Assembly (NCBI RefSeq): GCF_007747215.1
Contig: NZ_CP036273.1
Location: 6,866,322 to 6,930,321, forward strand
From: Urbifossiella limnaea
GTDB taxonomy: Bacteria > Planctomycetota > Planctomycetia > Gemmatales > Gemmataceae
Reading direction: 5' to 3'
Length of the DNA: 64,000 nucleotides
The notes under the pieces are model-generated. The model was not told the origin of the DNA. It did no database searches and saw only the letters and a list, made by a program, of their open reading frames with translations. This document shows positions 27,530-41,016 of the stretch, piece after piece (the stretch's first letter is position 1; each line of letters opens with the position of its first letter). A program made the translations under genes and the position numbers.

Positions 27530-28083
27530 CCCGGTAGCGTCCGCGACTCGGGCTTGGCGAGCGGGTGCTGGTCCTTGCGGCCGTCGGCGACGACCGCCAC
27601 CCACTCGGCCAGCCGCCGGCCGAGCAGCCGGCAGGACTGCTGCACCTCGGCGTCCCGCGGTTCCTTGGCCGCGACCGCGCCGTAGTGGCAGGTGGTCATC
27701 GTGCCGGCGTAGTCGGTGACGCCGAACACCAGGAAGCCGAAGTTCATCAGGACCATCTGGAGGGACTGGCAGGCGATCTCGGCCCCGCCGCCCCACCCGC
27801 CGCTGGACGAGAAGGCACAGGCGACCTTCCCGTCCACCTTCCCCCAGTGGTCGAACATGGTCTCGTCCCAGAACCGCTTCATCCGCCACGACAGCACGCC
27901 CATGTTCGTCGGGCTGCCGACCGCGAGGCCGTCGCACCAGTACACGTCGTCCGGCGACGCGGCATCCACGTCGCGGACGCGGACCTCGGTCCCGGGGATC
28001 CGCCCGGCCCCCTCTGCGACGAGTCGGGCCATCGCCGCGGTGTTCCCGCCGGCCGAGTGGTACAGCACCAGCACTTTTCCCAT
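27526..28083 (-). CDS. flavodoxin-like NAD(P)H:quinone oxidoreductase (WrbA family)
   Basis: 185 residues. The flavodoxin phosphate-binding loop YHSAGGNTAAMA opens the protein. The GSPTNMGVLSWRMKRFWDE and FSSSGGWGGGAE segments are characteristic of WrbA-type FMN-dependent quinone reductases, which reduce quinones by two electrons and protect against oxidative stress. ATG 28083 is preceded by GGGGGGAG. The gene is convergent with the esterase. Family is clear; natural electron acceptor is not. Confidence 0.88.
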
Positions 28084-28315
28084 CGACTCCCCCCGAACCG
28101 GTCCGGGCGTGATGGCACCCCAGGAGACAAGATAGAGGGGCCCGGTCGTCACCGCCCCGGGGGCGGCCAGGGCGATCGGCTCGACCGTCTTACGCGGGAG
28201 GCCCGCCAGGAGCCCCCGGCAGTACGGGGGGAAATGCTTGGCCGTTCGGCCCTGTTTGAAGCACCCGCGGTAGGTGCGGATTTCGGCCGCACCGCCGGTC
28301 GGTTCGGCGGTGGCC

Positions 28316-29944
28316 TCACCACCCGCCGAGCCCCAGCGCGGCGCGGAACTCGGCCAAGGCCCGGAAGTAGTCCTGCCGGGCGCCGATCTCGATTATTTCG
28401 GCGTCGAACGCCGCCTGCTCCCGCAAGGTGACCCGTAGCACGTCGCTGCGGCCGAGCCGCAGTTGCTCCCGCTCGGCCCGCGCAACCAGTCGCGCCAGCT
28501 CGACCCGCTGCCGGGCCTGGCGGTGGAACTCGTAGGCGCGGTCCAACGCCGACACGGCGTCCTGAACTTCGGCCCGCACCACGTCCTCCGCCTGCCGCAG
28601 TTGGGCCTCGATCTGGGCGAGCTGCGCGCCGGCCTGGATCTCCCGCCCGCGGGCGTCGCGCCGCTGGAGCGGTAGCTGCATCGCCACCCCGGCGTTCAGG
28701 GTCGTCCGGTCGAGTCCGTTCGGGCCGGACAGCGAGCTGGTGCCGTACCCCACGTCCTGTGCCGCGGCGACGACGGCGTTGACGGCCGGGAGCGTCTGGT
28801 TCGATGCCAGGCGCAGGTCCACGGCCGCCCGCTCGCGCTGGAGCCGGAGCCGCTGCGGCTCCGGGCGGTTGGCGAGGGCGGTTCGCAGCGCCTCCTCGAA
28901 CCCGGCCGCGACCGGCTGTACCTCGGGGAACACCGGCAGCCGGTCCCGACCGGCGAGGGTCGGGCTCCCGGCCGGGTCGCGGAGAAACAGGGACAACTCG
29001 ATGGTCGCCTGCTGGAACGCCCGCTGGGCCTGCACCATCAGGCCGTTGCGCAGGGCGATGTTCTGCTGGTTGTCCACCCGCTCGATGTTCGCCGCCGGCC
29101 CGGCCTCGACGCGCACCCGCAACTGCTCGTCGCGCTCGACCGCCAGCCGCACCAGCTCCTCGGCCACCTTGAGCCGGTGGCCGGCCCCGACCCAGGCCCA
29201 GTAGGTGCGGGCCGCGGCCCGCTGGAAGTCGAGCCGCTGGCGGTGGATCACCGGCTCGGCGATCTGGGTGTCGAGCCGGGCCTGCTGGATCGCCGCCCGG
29301 GGGCGGTCGATCTCGCGCCCCTGGAGGAGGGGGATGCTCACCCCGGCCCGGAACTCGCCGCCGTCGGCCGTCTTCTGGCCGAGGTTGTAGGTCGGGAAGG
29401 TGCCGTACCCGTTGCGGTACCCGGCGAACACCCCGAGCCCGGCCACCGGGATCCCCTGGCTGACGCCGAGGCCGCTGCGGAAGTTGTCGTACGTGGTCCC
29501 CTGCCCCTCGGCGGAGGCGGCGAGGTTCAGGTCGAACGCGCCCATCGCGGAGAGGAGCCGCCCGCCGGCCGCCACGCGCTCCTGCTCGACCGCCCGCAAC
29601 AGCGGGTAGTGCTGCTCCACCGCGGTCAACACCTCGTCCAGCCCGAGCGGCCCGCCGGCGCTCGGCGGCGCGCCGGCGATCGGCGTGGCGTCCGTCGGCG
29701 GCGCGGGCGGTGCGGACTTCGGCGCGGGCTCGACCGGGCGCGGCGGCGGGAGGGCTGGCTGGGCGGCGAACTTGTCGGCCGGCTCGGCGTGCGCGGCCGG
29801 AACGACCCCCGGCCGCGCCGGGGCCGCCGTCGTTGCCCGCACCCCGGCCGGGGCCGCGGAGGCCCACGACGGGTCCGACGACACGGTGCGGCAGCCGGCC
29901 CCGGCGAGGACGGCGGCGAGGATTGCGGTCCGGGTCGGGGTCAC
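28316..29944 (-). CDS. TolC-family outer-membrane channel of the ABC exporter
   Basis: 542 residues. A short signal sequence ends in a possible lipid-attachment Cys (LAAVLAGAGC), followed by an Ala/Pro-rich linker and two outer-membrane efflux protein repeats, the first starting with LGLDEVLTAVEQHYPLLRAV. It starts at GTG 29944, overlapping the adaptor stop by four bases (GTGA), the same coupling seen between the other genes of this operon. It provides the outer-membrane duct for the ABC transporter and adaptor. The lipobox is imperfect (Gly at -3), so lipidation is uncertain. Confidence 0.9.
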   Translation of the reverse strand: MTPTRTAILAAVLAGAGCRTVSSDPSWASAAPAGVRATTAAPARPGVVPAAHAEPADKFAAQPALPPPRPVEPAPKSAPPAPPTDATPIAGAPPSAGGPLGLDEVLTAVEQHYPLLRAVEQERVAAGGRLLSAMGAFDLNLAASAEGQGTTYDNFRSGLGVSQGIPVAGLGVFAGYRNGYGTFPTYNLGQKTADGGEFRAGVSIPLLQGREIDRPRAAIQQARLDTQIAEPVIHRQRLDFQRAAARTYWAWVGAGHRLKVAEELVRLAVERDEQLRVRVEAGPAANIERVDNQQNIALRNGLMVQAQRAFQQATIELSLFLRDPAGSPTLAGRDRLPVFPEVQPVAAGFEEALRTALANRPEPQRLRLQRERAAVDLRLASNQTLPAVNAVVAAAQDVGYGTSSLSGPNGLDRTTLNAGVAMQLPLQRRDARGREIQAGAQLAQIEAQLRQAEDVVRAEVQDAVSALDRAYEFHRQARQRVELARLVARAEREQLRLGRSDVLRVTLREQAAFDAEIIEIGARQDYFRALAEFRAALGLGGW

Positions 29945-31317
29945 TTCGTCTTCACCTTGGGCGGCTTGCTTTCGTCCTTGTCCGGCGGCTTGGGGGCGAC
30001 CACCGGCGGGAACCCGTTCAACTGCCGCCACAACTCGTACCCGAGCGTGACGCGGTTCAGGAACACCCACCCGACGGCCTGGTTCCCCTGGCGCAGGTAC
30101 AACCCTTCCGGCCAGCGGTCGCCGGCGAACAGTTCGTCCGGCTCGACGAGGATGCGGAACCGGCCGTTCCCGTCGTCCGTCGCGTCGATCTGGCGGACCC
30201 GGCCGCCGAACGTCCCGATCGCGACCGACGGCCAGCCGGCGAACTGGACGCCGGGCCACCCCTCGAACTGGAGCCGCACGTGCGGCCCCCGCCCGGTCTG
30301 CTCCATGTGCGCGGCGATGAGCGGGGCGTCCACCCCGTCCACCAGCAGCTCGACCACCCGGTCGGTGGCGTCGGGGACGATCACCGCCAGCTCGTCGCCC
30401 TCCTTGACGAACTGCCCGCCGGCCCCGGCGTTCGCGCTGATGCGGAAGATCACCCCGTCGGTCGGGGCCCGCACGAACCGGGCCTTGAACCGCTCGATCC
30501 GGTTCTCGATCTCCTGCAACTCCCGCTCGACCGAGAACCGGTTCTGCTCGGCCCGGTGGAGGTCGCGGTGGGCCAGGGCCACGGCCGACAGCCCCGTCGC
30601 CCCGGCCTGGAGGACGAGCGAGTCGGCCGTCAGTACCGCCGCCTCGGCCCGCTTCAGCTCGGCGTCGGCCCGGGTCACGTCGGTCAGCGCCCGGTCGGCC
30701 TTCGCCTTCGCGTCGTCCCGGCTCAGCTCCGACTCCAGCCCGCCGAACTGCTTGTCCCGGAACAGCCGGTCGAACATCTCGTACCGGCGCTTCTCGAAGG
30801 TCGCCGCAAACTCGTTGTTCTTCCGCGCCTGCCGGGACACGTCCACCAGCAGTGCCGCGGCGTCGCGGTTGGCCTTCGCGGCGGCGACGGCCGCGTCCAT
30901 CGCCTGCTCCTGGGCCTTGACCGACCGCAGTTGCTCGGCCAGCTCGTCCGTCGCGGCGTCCTTGCGACTGAAGAGAAACTTCCGCTGCGCGTCCAGCCGC
31001 TCGGCCAGGCCGGGGTCGTTATCGTCAATATCGACAATCGGGTCGCCGGCCTTCACCTTCGATCCCTCGACGACGTACCACTTCTTCACCTGCCCGCCGA
31101 CCAGGGCGGTGACCACCTGCTTCCGCTCGGTCGGCGCGAAGGCGACGATTTGCCCGCGGCCGCGGACCGTCTGCTGCCACGGCACGAACACCAGAACAAG
31201 CGGGGCGGCCACGAAGGTCAGGAGTAGGAGCCGGCCGACCCACCGGGCCGGCCGCGGGGTACGAGCCGCATCCAGGCTGGCGAACGGGACCGCCGGGGAG
31301 AACGCGGGCGCGGTCAT
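29941..31317 (-). CDS. HlyD-family periplasmic adaptor of the ABC exporter
   Basis: 458 residues. A membrane helix near residues 28-48 is followed by a first lipoyl half (VVEGSKVKAGDPIVDIDDND), a long coiled coil of about 180 residues rich in Ala, Lys, Glu and Asp, a second lipoyl half (FVRAPTDGVIFRISANAG), and a beta-barrel segment, then a Lys/Pro tail. This is the adaptor of an ABC-type, type I-like export system rather than an RND system. ATG 31317 overlaps the ABC gene stop by four bases. The Lys/Pro-rich C-terminus (PKPPDKDESKPPKVKTK) probably extends into the periplasm. Confidence 0.9.
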   Translation of the reverse strand: MTAPAFSPAVPFASLDAARTPRPARWVGRLLLLTFVAAPLVLVFVPWQQTVRGRGQIVAFAPTERKQVVTALVGGQVKKWYVVEGSKVKAGDPIVDIDDNDPGLAERLDAQRKFLFSRKDAATDELAEQLRSVKAQEQAMDAAVAAAKANRDAAALLVDVSRQARKNNEFAATFEKRRYEMFDRLFRDKQFGGLESELSRDDAKAKADRALTDVTRADAELKRAEAAVLTADSLVLQAGATGLSAVALAHRDLHRAEQNRFSVERELQEIENRIERFKARFVRAPTDGVIFRISANAGAGGQFVKEGDELAVIVPDATDRVVELLVDGVDAPLIAAHMEQTGRGPHVRLQFEGWPGVQFAGWPSVAIGTFGGRVRQIDATDDGNGRFRILVEPDELFAGDRWPEGLYLRQGNQAVGWVFLNRVTLGYELWRQLNGFPPVVAPKPPDKDESKPPKVKTK

Positions 31318-33002
31318 ACGTGGGCCTCCGATGTGGCTGCGCCGAGCGGAATCATCCGGTCGCACCGGCCGACCACCGCCGGGTTTGCCGTGGCGACCAG
31401 GAGTGTCCAGGGGGCGGCCCGGTCGAACAGGGCGGGGAGCACATCGGCCGAGTCGAATGCGTCGAGTGTGCCGTCGAGGAGGAGGAGCCGCGGCCGGGCG
31501 GCGATCGCCCGGGCGAGCGTCAGCCGCACCGCCTGGACGCCCGACAGCGGGGCGCCATTCGGGGTGAGGACGGTGTCGAACCCCTGCGGCAGCGCTTGCA
31601 CGGTTTCGAGCAGGCCGACGGCCCGGAGCGCGTCGCGGACCGCGGCGGCCGTCAGGTCGGCCCGGCCGACCCGGAGGTTGTCGTTGATCGTCCCGGCGAA
31701 GAGTTCCGCCCCGCCGACCAACTCCACTTGCTCGCGCAGCCTGTCCGGGTCGAACACCCGCAGGTCGAGCCCGTCGAGCTCGACGACCCCGCGGTCCGGC
31801 TCCCGGAGCCCGGCGACGGTCTCGAACAGGAGCGTCTTGCCCGACCCCGGCGGGCCGAGCACCGCCACCCGCTCGCCGGCCGCGACCGCCCAGTCGGCGG
31901 GGATGGGAAGCCCCCGGCCGGACACCCGGTCCACCCCGCGGAGGTGGACGGCCATCGCCCCGCCGGGCGGCGGCGCCTCCCCGCCCTCCCGCTCCAGCGG
32001 CAGGTCGGTGAGGAGGCCGAGCTTCTCCGCCCCGGCGAGTAGGTCGTAGTACGTCTCGGCGTACTTCCCGAGCTTGGCGACCGAGCCGAGCACGACGGAC
32101 ACGATCAACTCGGCCGCGACGAGCTGGCCGAGGGTGAGCTGTTGGTTGATGACGAGGTAGCCGCCGAGGCCGAGGAGGGCGGTCCCGCCGACCGCCTGGA
32201 GCCCGAAGGCGAACAGGGTCTGCCGCCACACCACCCGGAAGTGGGCCTTGCGGGCCTTCAGGTACTCGGCCGCCAGCCGGTCGCCCTCGGCCGCCGCCAG
32301 CCGGGGGCCGCCGGCCAGCTTGATCGCCCGGTGGCGGTGGAGGAGTTCTTGCAGCCACGCGGCCACGTCGTACTTGGCGTGCGACTCGTGCAGGGCGGTC
32401 TTCACCCCGCCCCACCCGAGGCCGAGCACCAGGAACAGCACCAGCAGGATCAGCACCGCGTCGAACCCGAGCAGGAGCGGGTGGTAGAACGCGACCACCG
32501 TCAGCCCGACCACGGCCGTGACGACCAGGGCGACGCCGTCGAGCAGGAGGGTGGCCAGGGACTTCTGCACGTTCAGAATGTCGAAGAACCGGTTGGCCAG
32601 TTCCGGGCCGTACCGGCGGTCGAAGGCGTCGAGCCGGATGCGGGGGAGGCGGTAGGCATAGTCCGCGGCCACCCGCACGAACAGCCGCCGCTGGAGGCAC
32701 TCGACCACGTACACCTGCATGGCCCGGACGGCGGCCGCCAGCCCGAGGCACCCGAACAGCACGAGCGCCAGCACAACTACCGGCCAGAGGAGTACGCCGA
32801 ACGCCACGGTGTTGACCAGCGACTCGACGGCGATCGGCGTGGCCAGCGACAGCACAGCCACGGCGGCGGCGAACACCACGACGGTAGCCACGTCGCGCCG
32901 CTCGGGGCCGAGGAGGAGGGCCAGCCGGGCGTAGGGGCGGGCCGGGGCGTGGCCGTGCCCCACCTCGTGCGCCGCGGGGGGGTGCGAAGCGTGTTCACCC
33001 AT
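31314..33002 (-). CDS. ABC transporter (membrane + ATPase) with degenerate nucleotide-binding site
   Basis: 562 residues: six predicted helices in the N-terminal half (about 40-320), then the nucleotide-binding domain. Walker A is intact (GPPGSGKT, Lys389). The signature is LSGVQ rather than LSGGQ. Walker B reads LLLLDGTLDAFD: Asp510 is present, but the catalytic Glu position is Gly511. The switch His aligns with Ala in LLVATANP. These are the residues needed for hydrolysis, so a homodimer of this protein may bind ATP but hydrolyse it poorly. The N-terminus has a short His-rich tail (EVGHGHAPARPY). ATG 33002 lies 35 bases after the carbonic anhydrase stop. Confidence 0.87.
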   Translation of the reverse strand: MGEHASHPPAAHEVGHGHAPARPYARLALLLGPERRDVATVVVFAAAVAVLSLATPIAVESLVNTVAFGVLLWPVVVLALVLFGCLGLAAAVRAMQVYVVECLQRRLFVRVAADYAYRLPRIRLDAFDRRYGPELANRFFDILNVQKSLATLLLDGVALVVTAVVGLTVVAFYHPLLLGFDAVLILLVLFLVLGLGWGGVKTALHESHAKYDVAAWLQELLHRHRAIKLAGGPRLAAAEGDRLAAEYLKARKAHFRVVWRQTLFAFGLQAVGGTALLGLGGYLVINQQLTLGQLVAAELIVSVVLGSVAKLGKYAETYYDLLAGAEKLGLLTDLPLEREGGEAPPPGGAMAVHLRGVDRVSGRGLPIPADWAVAAGERVAVLGPPGSGKTLLFETVAGLREPDRGVVELDGLDLRVFDPDRLREQVELVGGAELFAGTINDNLRVGRADLTAAAVRDALRAVGLLETVQALPQGFDTVLTPNGAPLSGVQAVRLTLARAIAARPRLLLLDGTLDAFDSADVLPALFDRAAPWTLLVATANPAVVGRCDRMIPLGAATSEAHV

Positions 33003-33037
33003 GTCTCGGCTCACGTCGGGACAGTGACCGGGGGCGG

Positions 33038-33613
33038 TCACAACTCCACCGGCGACACCCGCCCGGTAGAGATATCGTAGACGCCGCCGGCCACGTCCAG
33101 CCTCCCGCCCCGGACCAACCGGGCGATCACCGGGGACGCCTCGCGGAGCACGTCCATCTGGTTGCGCACGTTCTCCCGGACGGCCGCCTCCACGTCCCCG
33201 CCGGCGGTGCGCACCGCCGGCCGGATGTGGTAGAATAGCGAGCTGATCGACCCAGGCACCGGCTCCGCCCTCACCGCCGCGGTCACCGCCCCGCACGCGG
33301 TGTGGCCGAGGACGAAGAGCACCTTCGCCCCCAACACCTCCGTGGCGAACTCCAGGCTGGCGGTCACCTCCGGGGTCGAGACGTTCCCGGCGATGCGGGT
33401 GACGAACAGGTCGCCGAACCCCTGGTCGAACACGATCTCGACCGGCACCCGGCTGTCCGCACACCCGAGGAAGGCGGCGAACGGCTTCTGGGCCGGTGCC
33501 ACGGCGCGAAGACGACTCAGGTCGCGGTGCGGCGCGGCCGGCCGGCCGGCCGCGAACCGCTCGTTGCCGGCGTACAGCAGGGCCAGCGCTTCGGCCGGGC
33601 TCGGGTGGGTCAT
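33038..33613 (-). CDS. beta-class carbonic anhydrase
   Basis: 191 residues with the full beta-class signature: Cys51, Asp53 and Arg55 in GCADSRVP, and His104 and Cys107 in GHTACG, the zinc ligands plus the Asp-Arg dyad. It interconverts carbon dioxide and bicarbonate. No signal peptide is seen, so it is probably cytoplasmic. It is the first gene of an operon whose other members build a tripartite ABC exporter, an unusual association. Just upstream lies a perfect 21-bp hairpin. The start ATG 33613 has a CCGGAG site seven bases before it. Confidence 0.93.
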   Translation of the reverse strand: MTHPSPAEALALLYAGNERFAAGRPAAPHRDLSRLRAVAPAQKPFAAFLGCADSRVPVEIVFDQGFGDLFVTRIAGNVSTPEVTASLEFATEVLGAKVLFVLGHTACGAVTAAVRAEPVPGSISSLFYHIRPAVRTAGGDVEAAVRENVRNQMDVLREASPVIARLVRGGRLDVAGGVYDISTGRVSPVEL

Positions 33614-33633
33614 CGGTGCTCCGGGAAACGGAA

Positions 33634-33679
33634 ATAGGCCGGAGAAGCGCTACCACCCGGTAGCGCTTCTCCGGCCTAT
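33634..33679 (-). repeat. perfect 21-bp inverted repeat in the carbonic anhydrase leader
   Basis: Bases 33634-33654 are exactly complementary to 33659-33679, leaving a four-base loop (ACCC). Arms start ATAGGCCGGAGAAG and end in CTTCTCCGGCCTAT. The structure ends 20 bases upstream of the carbonic anhydrase ATG on the minus strand, before a TTTCCGTTTCC run and the ribosome site. It could be a terminator of upstream transcription, an mRNA-stabilising leader or a regulatory hairpin. I saw no second copy in this window. Confidence 0.75.
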
Positions 33680-33786
33680 GTCCTGCCCGGCGGGTCACGC
33701 CGGGAAGGCTGTCAGCTGTCGTCGGGCGACCGCGCGCGTGGCCGGCGGCCCGTGCCGCCCTCCCCCGCCCGATCGCGTCGAGATTA

Positions 33787-34188
33787 TTAGCCGCCCGTTC
33801 GACCGCGGTCAAGATCCCGATCGTCGTTTTCGACCGGGTCGCTGGACAGGCTGAAGACGAGGACGGACTCACCGGTCCGGGTGCTAATGTCGGTGTGGAG
33901 GCTCAGCACGCGGACGCCGAGGATGCGTTGGACGGCCTGTTCCAGGAGCTCGCGGCCGTGCTCGATCAGCTCGACCCGGAGTTGCTTGATGAGGTCGCGG
34001 CCGCGGTGTGGGTCTTCGACCTGCGCGAGCCGCTGCTCGGCCGGGGTGAGCACCCCGCGGAGGCGGACCAGGGCCACGTCCTCGACCAGGAACGTCCGCA
34101 CCTCCTGCGGCCCGCGGCCCATGTAGTCGCGCTTGAACCGGATGACCGCGGCACTGATTTCGGCCTCCAGTTCCCCCCGCGTTCGCAC
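33787..34188 (-). CDS. DUF2294 family protein
   Basis: 133 residues. The sequence LEAEISAAVIRFKRDYMGRG near the N-terminus and the VRLRGVLTPAEQRL motif are the recognised DUF2294 signature, a small cytoplasmic family of unknown function. It starts with GTG at 34188 after GGTGGGGG. The C-terminus (about 20 residues) is acidic and Arg-rich. The gene is transcribed toward the carbonic anhydrase operon from 108 bases upstream of its hairpin and could be cotranscribed with it. Confidence 0.75.
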   Translation of the reverse strand: MRTRGELEAEISAAVIRFKRDYMGRGPQEVRTFLVEDVALVRLRGVLTPAEQRLAQVEDPHRGRDLIKQLRVELIEHGRELLEQAVQRILGVRVLSLHTDISTRTGESVLVFSLSSDPVENDDRDLDRGRTGG

Positions 34189-34985
34189 GCCGCCCCCACC
34201 GTCCCGGCCGGCACGCGGTTCGTGCCGGTTATGCTGCTGTTATACGGCGCTGCCTCAAGTCCCGTGGCGAACCGGATCTCGGTCCCGGAGCGGACGGAGG
34301 GCACGAGGTCGCGGGCGAGTTGGCTCCGCGGCACCCGGGAGGATGGTGCAGGCAGCGACGCAGGCCGCTTCGTGGGTGCTAATGGACGTGGGGAGGGCCG
34401 ACAGGTACAGCCCCGCGCCCCTCCGTGCCTGCGCCGCCCGGCCCGCCGTCGTAGTGCCGGCCAACGGGGACGACCCGATGGGCGACGCCCGGCAGGCGGC
34501 GGGGACGGGGCAGCCGCCCGCTTGGCCGCGGCTGGTTTGTCGCCGGCTGTCGCGACCGCAGATTGACACTTTTCGCGCGACCGGGCAAGTACCACGTCCG
34601 GAGGCTCCCGCCAGACAGCCGCCGGCCGGTCCCGCCAAAGGTCGCTGAGGGCCACCGACACCTCGGAGGTGTCCCGTGACCACGGCCGACGCGGGCCGGC
34701 CGACGTACACCCCGTCGGCCGGCACCGCCCCGCCGAACACGTCGAGGTCGGTCGCGGCCGGCTCTCCGCCGCCGGCGAAGTCCTCGCCCGAGGTACAGCC
34801 AGAACCGTGCGGGCACCACCTCCGACCGCGGGAGACGTGACTGACTCGAGCAACTCATCGTGGGCAGCGGTCGCCGTTGCAGGTCGTCCCCGAGAGTGCC
34901 GGGCGCCGTTGGGTGCGAGCCGAGCGGCCGCGGCCGACTCCCTCCGCCGATGGCCGTCGGCCGAGTCCCCACCACAGGGCTTCCG
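34189..34985. other. 797-base gap without a recognisable gene
   Basis: Six frames were read. Several long open frames exist on both strands, as expected at this base composition, but none shows family motifs, a ribosome site or plausible amino-acid composition. No repeats, tRNA-like folds or insertion-sequence ends were noticed. It separates the DUF2294 gene from the end of the long chimeric frame. Confidence 0.4.
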
Positions 34986-37900
34986 TCACATTTTCTCCCG
35001 CGGCGGCGGGGCGGCCGGAGGCGGATACTTCGCCCGCTCGGCCCGCCACCGCGCCGCGTCGTCCGGCTTGTCCGTCGCGGTGTAGAAGTCGATCAGACGG
35101 TCGAGGGCCTCGGGGATTCGGGATTCCTCCCGCGGGTCCAGGAAGTACTCCCGCTGCTTCAGGCCCGCGTAGCCCTTCACCAGCAGCGGCTCGGCCTCGG
35201 CGTACTTCTTCTGACGCAGCAGAGCCTCCCCGAGCAGCGACTGGGTCTCGAAGGTCGGCCACTGGTTGGGCCAGTTCTTCTCCCGAATGGTCCCGCACTC
35301 CCGGAGCGGCGCTTCCGCGTCGGACCATTTCTTCTGCGCGAGGTAGGCGCGGCCGAGTAGGGCGAGCAGGTCGGCCTTGCTGTCGGCGACTTCGTCCTCG
35401 TCCTTCGCCGTCCGGAGGATTTCCAGTTGCTCGCGGCACGTGGTGACGACTTTGGCGTGCTCCCCCGCCACCGCGTAGACGTCGAGCAGTTGCTGCCTCA
35501 CCCCTTCGTCCGTCGCGGCCCCCTCCTCGAGCACCGCGATCGCCTCCTTGTGGCGGCCCGTGTCCTTGTAGGCCAGCCCCAGCATCCCCATCGCGTGCGG
35601 CGCCTCCGGGTCCTGGTTCGCCTTCCGAATCTTCACCACGTCTTCCAGTAGGAGGATGGCTTTCCCGGCCTGGCCCGTCTGGTGGTAGAATCGGCCGAGT
35701 TCGTCCATGACCTGGACCGTGGCGGGGTCCTCGGGCCCGTGCCTGGTCCTGCTGACGGCGAGGAGCTCGACGAGGACCGGAATCGCCTCGTCCCGCTTCC
35801 CGGTCTGCAAGTGCTCCTGGGCCAGGGTTTCCAGAGCCGCGAATCCGTCCGCGTCCGCCTGGTCGAGCACGGCCTTGTGCTCGCCCGGCGGGACGAGTTT
35901 GAGGTAGAACGCGGCCGCGAACTCGTCCCTGGCCAGCCGCGCCGCCAGGTAGCCGGCCCGATACCGCGCCAGGTTCGGTTGCGATTGCAGTCGGCGTTCG
36001 GCGGCGTCCTCCGGGTCCGGCTGCAGCGGGAGCACTTCGGCGCGGCCTTGGAGGTGGCGGACGAAGTAGCGCCCGTCGGGGCTGGTCCGCTCGCAGAGGA
36101 CCGTTCTGGGAACCGCTTCTCCCTTCAGTTCTTGACCCGAGCGCGCGTCCCACACCTTCGAGGCCTGGTCGAACCCCTCGGTGACGATCCGCGTTCCGTC
36201 GGTGGAGAAGGCACAGCGCTGGTGCGGGCCGGTCTGGAATTCGACGAGTTCCGCCCCGGTCCGGGCGTCCCACACCTTCACCGTCGGCTGGTTCCCGCCG
36301 CTGGCGATCCGGGCGCCGTCCGCACTGAACGCCAGGGAGATCTCGCCCCTCTCCCGCTTGCCCCCTTGCAGTTCGTGGAGGGTGCTTCCGGTTCGGGCGT
36401 CTGACAACCGGACCGTCCCGTCCTGACTGGCGGTCGCCACTCGCGTGCCGTCCGGGCTGAACGCCGCGGTCATGATGATGGACGAGCCCCCCGCCAGTTC
36501 GACCCCCGGCGCCCGCGTCGGCGCGTCCCACACCATGACCTCGCTCGGCTTGCCGTCGGTCCTGCGGGCGGAGGTGAGAAGCTGACGGCCGTCCGCGCGG
36601 AACGCGACGCTCGTCACGGCGCCGGTGTGGGACTTGAGTTCGGCGAGCGTCGTCCCGGTCCGCGCGTCCCACACCCGAACCGTGTGGTCCATGCTGCCGG
36701 TGACGACGCGCCTGCCGTCCGGGCTGAACGCGACGCTGGTCACGCCGCCCGTGTGACCTTTCAACTCGACGAGGGCCGCCCCGGTCGCCGCGTCCCGGAC
36801 CGCCGCGGTCTTGTTGTTGTGGGCCGTGGCGATCCGGGTGCCGTCCGGGCTGAACGCCACGCCCAGCACCGAGGAGTTGACCTTGACGGTGACGAGGGCC
36901 TGGCCCGACTTGGCGTCCCAGACCTTCAACTCATCCCCGTGGCTGGTGGTGTGCCTCACGCCCCCGGTGACGACCTGGGCGGCGGTCGCATCCTCCCCCC
37001 CGAGCCGGGTGAGCAGCTCGTCGAGTGACAGGACGAGGCCCGGATCCTCGGCCAGCGAGCCGGCCTGGTCGAGCAGTTCGAGGCGGACCCGGCCGCCGCC
37101 GCCGCGCTTCTGGCGGTTGTTGTCGCTGGCGTGGTTGACCAGCACCCGGCGCATGGCCTCGGCGGCGGCGGCGAAGAAGTGCCCGCGGTCGTCCCACCGG
37201 GCGGCGTCGGCCGGGCCGACGAGCCGCAGGTACGCCTCGTGGACGAGTGCGGTCGGCGGGAGGGTGTGGTCCGGCGGCTCGGCGGCCATGCGGGCGGCCG
37301 CGAGCTTCCGCAACTCGTCGTACACGAGCGGCAGCAGGTCCGCGGCGGCCGCGCGGTCGCCGGCCGCCGCGGCATCGAGCAGGCGGGTCACGTCGGACAT
37401 GCGGCCAGCATACCCGGCCCGACCGAGGACGCAACCTGGCGACGCACGCTCGGGATCGGCTCGGAGGTGGCTGCCGGGATCTCCTTCGCATTCCCGACGC
37501 TCGCGGCTTCGCCAACCGCCACAAGGTAGCGAGTGAGCGTCTCGAGCCGGGCTGCGCGGCGTCAGCTCCCGCGGAGGAGGGGCAACCGGTAGTAGGAAGC
37601 GCTGTCGGTAGGGCGGCCCGAACTGGTCGGGGTCGAGGCGAGCCGCTTCCGCGAACGCCGCCCGCCCGGCCGCGGCGTCGCCCGACTCCGCCAGCGCGAG
37701 CCCGAGAGCGGCGTGGGCGGGGGCGTGTCGGGGGTTCAAGCGGATCACCTCCCGGTACGCCGCGACGGCCCCGCGCACGTCCCCGGACGCCCGTAGCAAC
37801 TCCGCAAGGCAGGCGTGGGCGGGGAGGAGGTCGGGGTTGGTGCGAACGGCCTGTCGGAAGGCCGCGACCGCCCCCGGCCCGTCCCCCGTCGCCGCCAGCG

Positions 37901-40900
37901 CGAGGCCCAGGTTGTAGTTGGCGAGCACGTTCCCCGGCTCGAGGCGGACGGCCGCCTTGTAGGCGCCGAGCGCCCCCGGCAGGTCACCCGCGGCCTTCAG
38001 TGCGATACCGAGGTTGTTGTAAGCCGGGACGTACTTCGGGTCGGTTCGGACCGCATCCCGGTATGCCGTGACGGCCCCTTCCAAATCACCCGAGGCCCGC
38101 AGCGCCAGGCCCAGGCTGTTGTGCGCGCGGGCGTAGTTGGGGTCGGTTCGGATCGCGTCTCGGTACGCGGCAACGGCCCCCGGCTGGTCCCCCGCGGCCT
38201 TCAGCGCCAGCCCCAGGTGGTGGTGAGCGTGCGCCTGGGCGGGGTCGAGGCGGATCGCCTCGCGGCACGCGGCGGTCGCGGCGGGCGTGTCGCCGGCCTC
38301 CCGGAGCGCGTTCCCGAGGTAGGAGTGCGCCGCGGCGAAGCCGGGGTCGATGCGAACGGCCTCGCGGTACGCGGCGACGGCCCCCGGTACGTCCCCCCGG
38401 TCGCGGAGCACGTGCCCCAGGTTGGATCGAACGGGCGCGTACCGCGGGTCGAGCCGGATGGCGACGTTGTAGGCGTCGGTCGCGCCGGGTAGGTCGCCGG
38501 CGGCGCGGCGGGCGTTACCCAGGTGCGAGTGGGCGATGGCATCCGTCGGGTCGAGCCGGACGGCCGCCGCGGCCGCCACGACCCCCGCCCGCGGGTCGCC
38601 CGACTCGCAGAGGGCGCTCGCCAGGTTCGTGTACGCCTCGACGTAGTCGGGCGTGAGCCGGATGGCCTCGCGGAACGCCGCGACGGCGCCGGCCAGGTCG
38701 CCCGCGTCCTGGAGGGCGTTGCCGAGGTTGTTGTGGCCGTGCGCGTAGCCGGGGTCGAGCCGGACGGCCGCCTGTAGCGCCGCGAGCGCCCCGGGCGCGT
38801 CCTTCGCGTCGCGCAGGGTGGTCCCGAGGTTGCAGAACGCGATGGCGAACTTCGGGTCGATGCGGATGGCCTGCTGGTAGGCGGTGATCGCCGCCGGGAA
38901 CTTGCCCAGGTCGTGCAGGACGTTGCCGAGGTTGTTCCACGCGGAGACGCTGCGGGGGCGAACGGCCAGCGCGGCCCGGTACCAGCCCGCCCGGTCGGCC
39001 GTACGATCCGCCCGCCCGCCGGGCCGAGAGGCGGCCAGGTCCATGAGGACGTGGAAGTTGTTCGGCTGGCTCCGGTACACGGCGTCGAGGATCTGGTCTC
39101 GACGGGCCACGGGTACGGCGGGATCGCGCGCGAGCAGGAGGGCGAACCGGGCCGGCTGGCCCAGGGCCTCCGGGGCGCCCGCCAGTTCGACGAGCCGCGC
39201 CGCGTTCCCCTCCCGCCGGGCCGCGCGGACGGCGTTCCGGTACGCGTCCGGGTCGGCGGCCAGTAGCAGCGCCGCCACCCCGGCCGACGGCCGCGTCCAG
39301 AACCAGCTCTCCAGCGCCCGCAGGAGTTGCTCGCGCGTCGTGGCGCCGCGCACCCGGGCCACCGTCTCGTCCGACGGGGGCGACCCGGCGGCGAACCCGA
39401 CCCGGCGGAACACGCCGGACCAGGCGGCGACCAGCCGGTCCGCGTCGGCGGGCTTCCCCGCGACGACCGCCCACTCCAGATCGTGGCCGGCGTCGAGCTC
39501 CCGGAGGAGGGCGAGTTCGGCGCGGAGGCGGGTGATGTTGCCGTTGGCGTCGCCCGCCCCCTGGGCGACCCGCTCCCCGGCCTGGGCGAGAAGTTCCTCC
39601 GCGCGGTCGGCGTCGCCCTGTCGTAACCGGTCCTCGCACCGCGCGAGGACGTCCTCGACCGCCGCGGCGTCGCGGGCCAGGCGCTCGCGCTCGGCCAGCT
39701 GCCGGAGCTCGTCCTGTCGCCGCCGGTCCGCGGCCTGCCGGTCCTGCCACCACGCCCCGAGGCCGACGACGGCGGCGAAGGCCACGACCGCAACCGCCAG
39801 CGCCGCCTGCACGCGCCGCTTCTTCCGCTGCTCGGCCGCGCGAGCGCCGGCGGCGGCGCGCTCGGCCTCGGCCTCGCGCAGCCGCCGCTCGACCCCCGCC
39901 CGGTAGGCGGCGACGGCGTCCGCGACGGCCTCCCCGTCGGCCGGGCGGTCGGCCGCGCGGGGGCTCAACAAGTGTTTGCAAAGCGCGACGAGGTCCGCGT
40001 CCGCGCCGCAGGCGTCGAGGCGGGCGAAGGCGGGCTCGACGTCGCCCCGCGCCGCCCGCACGACCGTGTCCTCCGCGGTGCCGCCCGCGAACGGCGGGTG
40101 CCCGGTGAGGACGTCGCAGAGGATGCCGCCGAGCGCGAACACGTCGATCGACGGGGTGGCGGGCTCCCCGCGGGCCTGCTCCGGGGCCATGTACGCCGGC
40201 GTTCCCAGCGCCACCCCCACCTCCGTCTCAACGGGGTCGTCGCGGTGCCGGTCGCGCCCGGCGCCCGGCCGCGGCTCGTCGTCCGCGCCCCCCACCTCCT
40301 TGGCGAGCCCCCAGTCCATGAGCTGGACCTCGCCGAACGCCCCGACCATGACGTTCGCCGGCTTCAGGTCGCGGTGGACCACCCCCTGCGAGTGGGCGAA
40401 CCCGACCGCCTGCGCGACCTGCTCGAAGACCCGCACGAGCCGCGGCAGGTCGGCGGGGCGGTCGGCGCCCTTCAGCTCGGCGGCGAGGGTGCGGCCGCGG
40501 ACGAACTTCATCGCCAGGAACGGGCCGCCGTCGGGGAGCGTGCCGAGCTCGTAAACGGGCGGGATTGCCGGGTGCGGCAGGCGCGCGGTGATCCGCGACT
40601 CCTGGACGAACCGCCGGGCCGCTTCGCCGGAGCAGTCGCCGGGGAGCAGCACCTTGACGGCCACGTCGCGCCCGAGCTTCGGGTCGCGGGCCGCGAGGAC
40701 CAGCCCCATCCCGCCGCGGGCGATCTCGCGCCCGACTTCGTACCCCGGGATCCAGAGCCGCGCCCCCGCCGCGTCGTCGACCGGGCCGACAGAAGGGTTC
40801 ATCACCCACGTCGGGAGGGCCGGCGGCGGCGTCTCGGGCGGGGGGACGGGGTGCGGGCGGACCGGCACCTCGATCTTGACCGTGCTCTCGGCGGGCATGT

Positions 40901-40931
40901 GGCGTTCCGACGGACCCGGTGCGACGGCCAT
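34986..40931 (-). CDS. 1,981-codon chimeric frame: kinase-TPR / sigma region 2 / WD40-TPR
   Basis: One uninterrupted frame. Residues about 63-330 are a Ser/Thr kinase (ARGGMGLVLAA loop, HRDLKPANVMV, APEQ), a membrane helix lies at 370-395, and about 14 TPR repeats run from 640 to 1145 (for example ALGNVLHDLGKF type units). Then comes a short unstructured link, and from residue 1178 (ATG 37400) an ECF sigma region 2. Near residue 1323 this switches to WD40 repeats (GVAFSPDGTRIATA and similar) to about 1640, and a second TPR block ends the protein. The usual gene order in this group is sigma factor then kinase-WD40. The frame looks like a read-through of a kinase-TPR gene into a deletion-fused sigma/WD40 gene. 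Whether it is made as one, two or no proteins is unknown. Alternative start ATG 40898. Confidence 0.6.
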   Translation of the reverse strand: MAVAPGPSERHMPAESTVKIEVPVRPHPVPPPETPPPALPTWVMNPSVGPVDDAAGARLWIPGYEVGREIARGGMGLVLAARDPKLGRDVAVKVLLPGDCSGEAARRFVQESRITARLPHPAIPPVYELGTLPDGGPFLAMKFVRGRTLAAELKGADRPADLPRLVRVFEQVAQAVGFAHSQGVVHRDLKPANVMVGAFGEVQLMDWGLAKEVGGADDEPRPGAGRDRHRDDPVETEVGVALGTPAYMAPEQARGEPATPSIDVFALGGILCDVLTGHPPFAGGTAEDTVVRAARGDVEPAFARLDACGADADLVALCKHLLSPRAADRPADGEAVADAVAAYRAGVERRLREAEAERAAAGARAAEQRKKRRVQAALAVAVVAFAAVVGLGAWWQDRQAADRRRQDELRQLAERERLARDAAAVEDVLARCEDRLRQGDADRAEELLAQAGERVAQGAGDANGNITRLRAELALLRELDAGHDLEWAVVAGKPADADRLVAAWSGVFRRVGFAAGSPPSDETVARVRGATTREQLLRALESWFWTRPSAGVAALLLAADPDAYRNAVRAARREGNAARLVELAGAPEALGQPARFALLLARDPAVPVARRDQILDAVYRSQPNNFHVLMDLAASRPGGRADRTADRAGWYRAALAVRPRSVSAWNNLGNVLHDLGKFPAAITAYQQAIRIDPKFAIAFCNLGTTLRDAKDAPGALAALQAAVRLDPGYAHGHNNLGNALQDAGDLAGAVAAFREAIRLTPDYVEAYTNLASALCESGDPRAGVVAAAAAVRLDPTDAIAHSHLGNARRAAGDLPGATDAYNVAIRLDPRYAPVRSNLGHVLRDRGDVPGAVAAYREAVRIDPGFAAAHSYLGNALREAGDTPAATAACREAIRLDPAQAHAHHHLGLALKAAGDQPGAVAAYRDAIRTDPNYARAHNSLGLALRASGDLEGAVTAYRDAVRTDPKYVPAYNNLGIALKAAGDLPGALGAYKAAVRLEPGNVLANYNLGLALAATGDGPGAVAAFRQAVRTNPDLLPAHACLAELLRASGDVRGAVAAYREVIRLNPRHAPAHAALGLALAESGDAAAGRAAFAEAARLDPDQFGPPYRQRFLLPVAPPPRELTPRSPARDAHSLPCGGWRSRERRECEGDPGSHLRADPERASPGCVLGRAGYAGRMSDVTRLLDAAAAGDRAAAADLLPLVYDELRKLAAARMAAEPPDHTLPPTALVHEAYLRLVGPADAARWDDRGHFFAAAAEAMRRVLVNHASDNNRQKRGGGGRVRLELLDQAGSLAEDPGLVLSLDELLTRLGGEDATAAQVVTGGVRHTTSHGDELKVWDAKSGQALVTVKVNSSVLGVAFSPDGTRIATAHNNKTAAVRDAATGAALVELKGHTGGVTSVAFSPDGRRVVTGSMDHTVRVWDARTGTTLAELKSHTGAVTSVAFRADGRQLLTSARRTDGKPSEVMVWDAPTRAPGVELAGGSSIIMTAAFSPDGTRVATASQDGTVRLSDARTGSTLHELQGGKRERGEISLAFSADGARIASGGNQPTVKVWDARTGAELVEFQTGPHQRCAFSTDGTRIVTEGFDQASKVWDARSGQELKGEAVPRTVLCERTSPDGRYFVRHLQGRAEVLPLQPDPEDAAERRLQSQPNLARYRAGYLAARLARDEFAAAFYLKLVPPGEHKAVLDQADADGFAALETLAQEHLQTGKRDEAIPVLVELLAVSRTRHGPEDPATVQVMDELGRFYHQTGQAGKAILLLEDVVKIRKANQDPEAPHAMGMLGLAYKDTGRHKEAIAVLEEGAATDEGVRQQLLDVYAVAGEHAKVVTTCREQLEILRTAKDEDEVADSKADLLALLGRAYLAQKKWSDAEAPLRECGTIREKNWPNQWPTFETQSLLGEALLRQKKYAEAEPLLVKGYAGLKQREYFLDPREESRIPEALDRLIDFYTATDKPDDAARWRAERAKYPPPAAPPPREKM
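36966..37400 (-). pseudogene. ECF sigma region 2 joined in frame to WD40 repeats
   Basis: From ATG 37400 (MSDVTRLLDAAAAGDRAAAA) the sequence is a clear ECF sigma N-terminus: YDELRKLAAARMAAE, ALVHEAYLRLVGPADAARWD and LDELLTRLGGEDATAAQVV. A normal member would continue into KLRYFAG and the region 4 helix-turn-helix. Instead the frame continues VTGGVRHTTSHGDELKVWDA, the middle of a WD40 repeat. The junction falls at AQVV/VVTG, coded by GTCGTC, which fits both partners, so a short microhomology deletion is a likely origin. Region 4, and the kinase domain expected ahead of the WD40 repeats, are missing. Confidence 0.75.
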
Positions 40932-41016
40932 CCCCTGGCCACCCGGCAGGAGTGTACGTCACGATCCGCCGGATGCCGTCGCCTGGTCGAAACCCGCGGC
41001 CTGCATGGGAATGGGG

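Follow-up and report, generated by a model that had tools for sequence, protein, structure and literature searches.

The perfect hairpin that lies just ahead of a beta-carbonic anhydrase gene in Urbifossiella limnaea is probably the terminator-like end of a leader RNA that attenuates the transcription of genes for inorganic-carbon supply. Within the 64,000-nucleotide stretch of DNA analysed here (the window), this leader reads along the minus strand as a promoter-like site at the mpsC (DUF2294) end, a long irregular hairpin (P1), a linker, a second hairpin (P2), the perfect hairpin itself (P3), a T tract and the next gene. The promoter-like site, the covarying P2 and P3, the terminator form and the repeated siting of related RNAs before genes for SbtA, beta-carbonic anhydrase, DabB-DabA and SulP can be read directly from the sequences compared. 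The first-pass annotation of this DNA had described the hairpin and its position; it did not note the promoter-like site or the two stems upstream, nor that the RNA is conserved and linked to inorganic-carbon genes.

The hairpin and the putative leader RNA in the window

The features are listed below from the upstream to the downstream end of the minus strand.

33787-34188, minus strand: mpsC (DUF2294) ORF, usually found on the upstream side of the RNA (PF10057 MpsC, E 4.4e-36)
33783-33812, minus strand: sigma-70-like promoter-like site, TTGACC-18-AATAAT (10 of 12 consensus positions)
33627-33783, minus strand: putative leader RNA, whole covariance-model match of ~157 nt (model R2, 120.2 bits, E 2.8e-23, the window copy being one of the 28 sequences inside the model)
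33719-33783, minus strand: P1, long irregular hairpin (individual folds)
33709-33718, minus strand: linker CAGCTGACAG with conserved GCTGA (sequence, column conservation)
33682-33708, minus strand: P2 hairpin (window fold, covariation)
33634-33679, minus strand: P3, the terminator-like stem and reported hairpin, loop 33655-33658 (fold, terminator-like call, covariation)
33626-33634, minus strand: degenerate T tract TTTCCGTTT, whose first T (33634) doubles as the last stem base (sequence)
33038-33613, minus strand: beta-carbonic anhydrase, first gene behind the leader (PF00484, E 2.3e-36)
31314-33002, minus strand: ABC exporter permease/ATPase, start codon chosen (PF00005, PF00664)
29941-31281, minus strand: HlyD-like adaptor of the exporter, start codon chosen (PF13437, E 6.5e-12)
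28316-29980, minus strand: outer-membrane efflux protein, start codon chosen (PF02321, E 5.8e-32)

The hairpin was confirmed from the sequence as it had been described, with 21 of 21 complementary bases in the arms 33634-33654 and 33659-33679, a loop that reads ACCC on the plus strand and GGGT on the minus strand, and 20 bases (33614-33633) between it and the carbonic anhydrase ATG at 33613 (minus strand); arms extended to 25 bp still match at 96%. It is the sole perfect stem longer than 12 bp (loop 3-12) in the 64-kb window, nine pairs longer than the next one, and the longest stem per sequence was 9-12 bp in 30 random sequences from a first-order Markov model of the window. Folding of 33614-33790 (minus strand) gave -109.3 kcal/mol with a z-score of -6.95, and none of 200 shuffles was equally stable. 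No second copy of the 28-base core pattern or of the 21-base arm was found at up to three mismatches in the 7,795,793-base genome, and the hairpin is therefore not a dispersed repeat, which was the possibility that the earlier reading had set against itself. That the palindrome arose by chance, already judged unlikely before, or as a mobile element is hardly credible: its 21 unbroken pairs do exceed the 11-19 pairs of the homologues (where such stems were found, with G-T allowed), but it is a single genomic copy and a homologous, covarying stem exists in relatives.

P3 has the form of an intrinsic terminator, a stable GC-rich stem-loop and then a U-rich tract, with a weak tail in the window. 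The window tract aligns with the T tract TTTTTTCGTTT of a same-genus relative, and at least five T in a row are present in 14 of the 16 other aligned homologues (L117, with TTTT, is among the exceptions). The tract of the window being degenerate, termination at P3 may therefore be leaky there.

The -10 box of the promoter-like site overlaps the mpsC stop codon and places the true RNA start probably near 33776 (minus strand). This site, recognised by consensus match alone, was the only one found in window 28000-41000, where 0.1 were expected, and 24 of the 28 aligned homologues have TTGAC close to where the RNA begins, as compared to 7% of random windows from the same loci. P1-like hairpins were seen by eye in 12 of 14 individual folds and the hairpin's own halves paired better than swapped halves, weakly (p 0.03); the folding energy of the upstream part was often no better than that of shuffled sequences (z between 0.15 and -3.5 across the 14), and P1 received no covariation backing in these alignments. 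The conservation of the GCTGA linker is strongest in the 13 best rows of alignment A6, which holds 28 sequences, and over all 28 rows the region before P2 shows little of the conservation typical of a metabolite aptamer.

Homologues, covariation and distribution

A DNA search of 59 genomes, including the own one, yielded one clear relative, from the same genus, which matches at 72% over window 33596-33774; its hairpin also lies behind mpsC and is followed by a canonical T tract, GGCCTTTTTTCGTTT, and a different next gene. With this relative as query, nine further clear homologues were obtained from 95 genomes of the family, and additional ones came from mpsC loci fetched by protein alone. The architecture common to 17 aligned sequences comprises a TTGAC-type site near the mpsC end, usually P1, the linker, P2, P3 and a T tract. 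RNAalifold applied to the unfitted alignment of these 17 returned P2 and P3, with 24 pairs, 19 of which were changed on both sides. In this unfitted MAFFT alignment 92.4% of cells were paired and 59 double changes were counted, as compared to 16.4 in shuffled and at most 16 in slid alignments. The model-fitted alignment of 28 sequences (A6), which is biased towards structure and from which one antisense row was left out by threshold, gave 93.8% paired cells and 136 double changes, against 39.5 shuffled and at most 32 slid; both-side changes occurred in 8 of 8 modelled pairs of P2 (96.4% of cells paired) and 12 of 16 of P3 (92.5%). Compensatory change in orthologous stems, which had been proposed as a check on the hairpin, was thus found.

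The covariance model R1, which is blind to genes, was searched against 102 genomes of the order (Gemmatales). Sense matches at E<=1e-4 were present at 28 sites in 23 of the 102 genomes, and any match at E<=0.01 in 27 genomes. Twenty-nine rows passed E<=1e-4, and the dropped one is an antisense reading of the window palindrome. Sixteen of the 28 sense copies were in the model and 12 were not. Another 12 weaker rows in the order were left uncounted; they include seven antisense rows, the apparently false L169 and L170, and G023:C672 at a contig end; two others of these, L171 (carbonic anhydrase) and L172 (exporter), fit the pattern described below. In the class, 25 of 297 genomes had a match at E<=1e-3; those beyond the order (L176-L180) are weak, and mpsC was in the locus in 5 of 5. 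The phylum search with R2 returned only the own genome among 392 and says little, because just 7 candidates were scored per genome.

Across 12 homologue loci, nothing in Rfam 15 reached its gathering score over the RNA, and the matches in the window and L005 were all sub-gathering. Those of the window were mostly to microRNA models and were rejected, as was Scr3202, which scored best in L005 with 36.3 bits against a cut-off of 52.

Genes before and behind the RNA

The gene next to the RNA in the 28 sense copies encodes SbtA or a member of a small protein family in 8 each (the latter including one cut by a contig end and one 35% match), beta-carbonic anhydrase in 7 (L164 falls short of the Pfam cut-off), MpsC in 2, and a SulP transporter, an ABC exporter and a Usp-family protein in 1 each. 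The 12 copies outside the model precede carbonic anhydrase (6), SbtA (1), SulP (1), mpsC (1), small protein (2) and Usp (1) genes, so that an inorganic-carbon gene is next in 8 of 12. The predicted start of the next gene (first ATG/GTG) lies 10-70 nt past the match in 24 of the 28 and beyond 70 nt in L147, L149, L151 and L164; this count looked at same-strand ORFs only, and the tblastn next-gene matches were also on the RNA strand. Other planctomycetes have the RNA between mpsC and dabB-dabA (L082, L085), with DabB behind it also in L177, and ahead of carbonic-anhydrase-like and Usp genes. In Pfam, SbtA (PF05982) is described as a Na+-dependent bicarbonate transporter, PF00484 as carbonic anhydrase and DabA (PF10070) as a probable inorganic carbon transporter subunit. 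The SulP family (PF00916) includes bicarbonate carriers such as BicA, and the SulP protein here is at most a putative bicarbonate carrier. One RNA ahead of several unrelated kinds of CO2/bicarbonate gene suggests that carbon supply is under a common control exerted through RNA. The copies before the small protein family (8/28), Usp (1/28) and the exporter (1/28) count against this link.

In the window, the genes behind carbonic anhydrase (28316-33002) encode an exporter of three parts, the ABC, HlyD and outer-membrane proteins. The first-pass annotation had named the exporter operon as the target of a leader; the leader part fits, and the target has to be widened, since the exporter is next in just 1 of the 28 sense copies and SbtA, carbonic anhydrase or the small protein in 23. 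In L151/L193 the RNA is directly followed by a relative of the exporter, as is a weak partial match in L172; in G070 (L193) this related exporter comes without carbonic anhydrase. The window contains no sbtA, and the genome it belongs to gave no Sbt_1 match at E<=1e-20. A relative of the window carbonic anhydrase follows sbtA in 5 of the 8 RNA-SbtA loci, and in L196 an exporter then follows too.

Members of the small protein family (~130-175 aa) are found at L158 (1668-2129), L159 (1684-2151), L160 (1717-2238), L157, L165 and L156/L190. Four members are without a Pfam match and two without an NCBIfam match; this family, often directly behind the RNA, may be an unrecognised inorganic-carbon component. 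In L095, L096, L167, L176 and L179 the gene immediately after mpsC and the RNA encodes a Usp-family-like protein. Two tandem model matches are present between mpsC and the next gene in L075 (2266-2524), L085 (4593-4947), L082 (4510-4972) and L102 (789-1060), which could be tandem leaders, or a leader and an mpsC terminator. The matches in L080 and L097 precede a chorismate-synthase-like ORF and another ORF; because these do not look like carbon genes, the two matches may be plain terminators.

Upstream of the RNA, mpsC is the constant neighbour. Among the 28 sense copies it was upstream in 22, downstream in 3 and not seen in 3 (one at a contig edge). All eight of the SbtA genes in the order with mpsC upstream have the RNA and none of the six without mpsC, a reverse test which is not independent, as the 8 RNA copies were in model R2. 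For 20 dab loci fetched by DabA, the first 20 of 30 loci listed (DabA was found in 134 of 198 genomes), the RNA was found in 3 of 3 that have mpsC upstream (E<=4.2e-7, no copy being part of a model), and the 17 without mpsC gave one weak match (L238, E 2.4e-4). Taken over the sampled SbtA and Dab operons, the RNA is present in 11/11 with mpsC upstream vs one weak match in 23 without. Of the 61 mpsC loci fetched by protein alone, 24 showed a match at E<=1e-3 starting within 250 nt downstream of mpsC, and one more (L064) showed a match upstream; the best of the matching copies were in the models, and L080 and L097 are counted. Twenty-four of the 25 matching loci are among the 31 titled planctomycetes and the other, L085, is titled 'bacterium', while 0 of 29 mpsC loci titled as other phyla have the RNA at E<=1e-3 with model R2.

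An RNA copy also stands before mpsC in G081 (L184, 6137-6289, minus strand), G084 (L186, 2121-2271) and G023 (L191, 1608-1760; weak, E 2e-5), and mpsC may therefore share the same control. No NCBIfam match was found for MpsC. Its predicted fold (mean pLDDT 90.3), compared with known structures for signs of RNA binding, had a best Foldseek E of 0.023, mostly to ribosomal proteins with TM ~0.3, and structural Z of at most 7.3, with no clear fold match, and no solved relative was detected by sequence (best E 0.35). Elsewhere in the window, 34986-40931 (minus strand) is a 1981-aa ORF that, by eye, has a protein-kinase-like start and many TPR-like repeats.

Proposed attenuation, its alternatives and known systems

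The preferred reading is attenuation. A promoter at the mpsC 3' end would start the ~157-nt RNA, which would fold into P1, P2 and P3; P3 with its T tract would act as an intrinsic terminator 20 nt ahead of the gene, and the downstream gene would be expressed when RNA polymerase reads through past P3. Transcripts would accordingly be expected to end at P3, read-through would be regulated, the signal would be inorganic-carbon status and MpsC would take part. The locus has the form of an attenuator leader, a conserved structured RNA that runs from a promoter-like site, identified by its consensus, to a co-directional gene. In the window, 20 nt from hairpin to ATG is too short for another promoter of the usual kind; with the promoter-like site lying before P3, transcription of the gene must therefore pass P3. 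Such obligatory passage fits attenuation and is awkward for a free small RNA or a plain mpsC terminator. The terminator and the leader, offered by the first-pass annotation as separate readings, both fit and would be one thing, since P3 is the terminator-like stem of a longer leader with its own promoter-like site, for which each reading taken singly was too narrow; a processing site, the third suggestion, found no support in this analysis.

It is unlikely that P3 is simply the mpsC terminator, with constitutive leaky read-through that senses nothing and merely lowers expression of the next gene. The poor T tract of the window would agree with this, as would the antiterminator that was not found and the weak terminator which separates mpsAB from mpsC in Staphylococcus aureus according to the parts of that report consulted (PMC6689103). 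Termination, however, does not need P2 or the GCTGA linker of the core family, and both are conserved; nor does it account for TTGAC just ahead of the RNA in 24 of 28 copies. An independent small RNA gene, comprising a promoter, a structured RNA of ~150 nt and a terminator, whose product acts in trans and which lies near carbon genes through a conserved neighbourhood, is quite unlikely. A promoter-like site and a terminator do bound a compact unit, whose constant neighbour is mpsC and not the downstream gene, but a same-strand gene start follows within 10-70 nt in most copies, the 20 nt of the window leave no room for another promoter, and two genomes carry copies before different genes: G081 before mpsC, SbtA and carbonic anhydrase, and G084 before mpsC, carbonic anhydrase and SulP.

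How an attenuating leader would be switched was approached through its pairing and coding potential. Antiterminator pairing of the P3 5' arm was not supported by own-vs-swapped duplexes (p 0.04-0.88 in 17 sequences, of which only L060 beat all 16 swapped partners; p 0.06-0.996 in the repeat on 28, where the P2 and P3 controls gave 0/20,000). Pairing of P1 with the P3 3' arm gave p 0.026-0.048 on the 28 sequences, which is weak given the many tests. A leader peptide is not conserved, with an ATG-started closed ORF of at least 6 codons in 5 of 28 rows and, when GTG and TTG starts were added, no column common to more than 4 rows. With no antiterminator helix supported and no leader peptide conserved, read-through could equally well depend on a protein factor or on a ligand-bound switch, and MpsC, as the constant neighbour, is the first candidate for such a factor, though mpsC loci of other phyla were without the RNA. 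A bolder proposal, which we offer as speculation with the odds against it, is an RNA sensor class for inorganic carbon, in which the leader and its MpsC partner sense CO2 or bicarbonate (or a sodium or pH proxy) and decide at P3 whether carbonic anhydrase, SbtA, Dab or SulP is made; on this proposal the way the RNA tracks mpsC in SbtA and Dab operons would make MpsC a transcription read-through factor. To our knowledge, no natural riboswitch for CO2 or bicarbonate is known, and none appeared among the literature matches listed, as far as their titles and the beginnings of their abstracts tell. With as many as four unrelated inorganic-carbon systems behind it, the RNA family would mark out a carbon-supply regulon in a phylum that is large and little studied; the association with the RNA would suggest a function for DUF2294/MpsC, and the leader would provide a defined RNA for direct tests of CO2/bicarbonate sensing by RNA.

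Compared with known systems, the leader is similar to intrinsic terminators in attenuator leaders in having a GC-rich hairpin and then a T tract between promoter and gene, and differs from them in its conserved linker and P2, with neither antiterminator nor leader peptide found. In the parts consulted, the orphan riboswitch candidates with terminator platforms (PMC10043782) are likewise conserved structured leaders before functionally related, non-homologous genes, whereas the leader here is weakly conserved before P2 and showed no switching helix; the main text of that review is without the words bicarbonate, carbonic and carbon dioxide. The Rhodopirellula-1 motif (PMC2864571, seen in part) is also a candidate RNA from Planctomycetes, and from Proteobacteria, with no Rfam number. 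The leader RNA apparently represents a new family of terminator-bearing leaders, though it may be the same RNA as Rhodopirellula-1; no description of this RNA was seen in the titles and abstract beginnings of the open-licence literature matches listed. In S. aureus, according to the sections of the report consulted (PMC6689103), MpsAB is needed for growth at air CO2 and replaces carbonic anhydrase, and deletion of mpsC caused no growth defect. The gene order there is other than in the planctomycete loci, but both have mpsC beside a bicarbonate supply system and a terminator, in the planctomycetes a putative one, in the operon.
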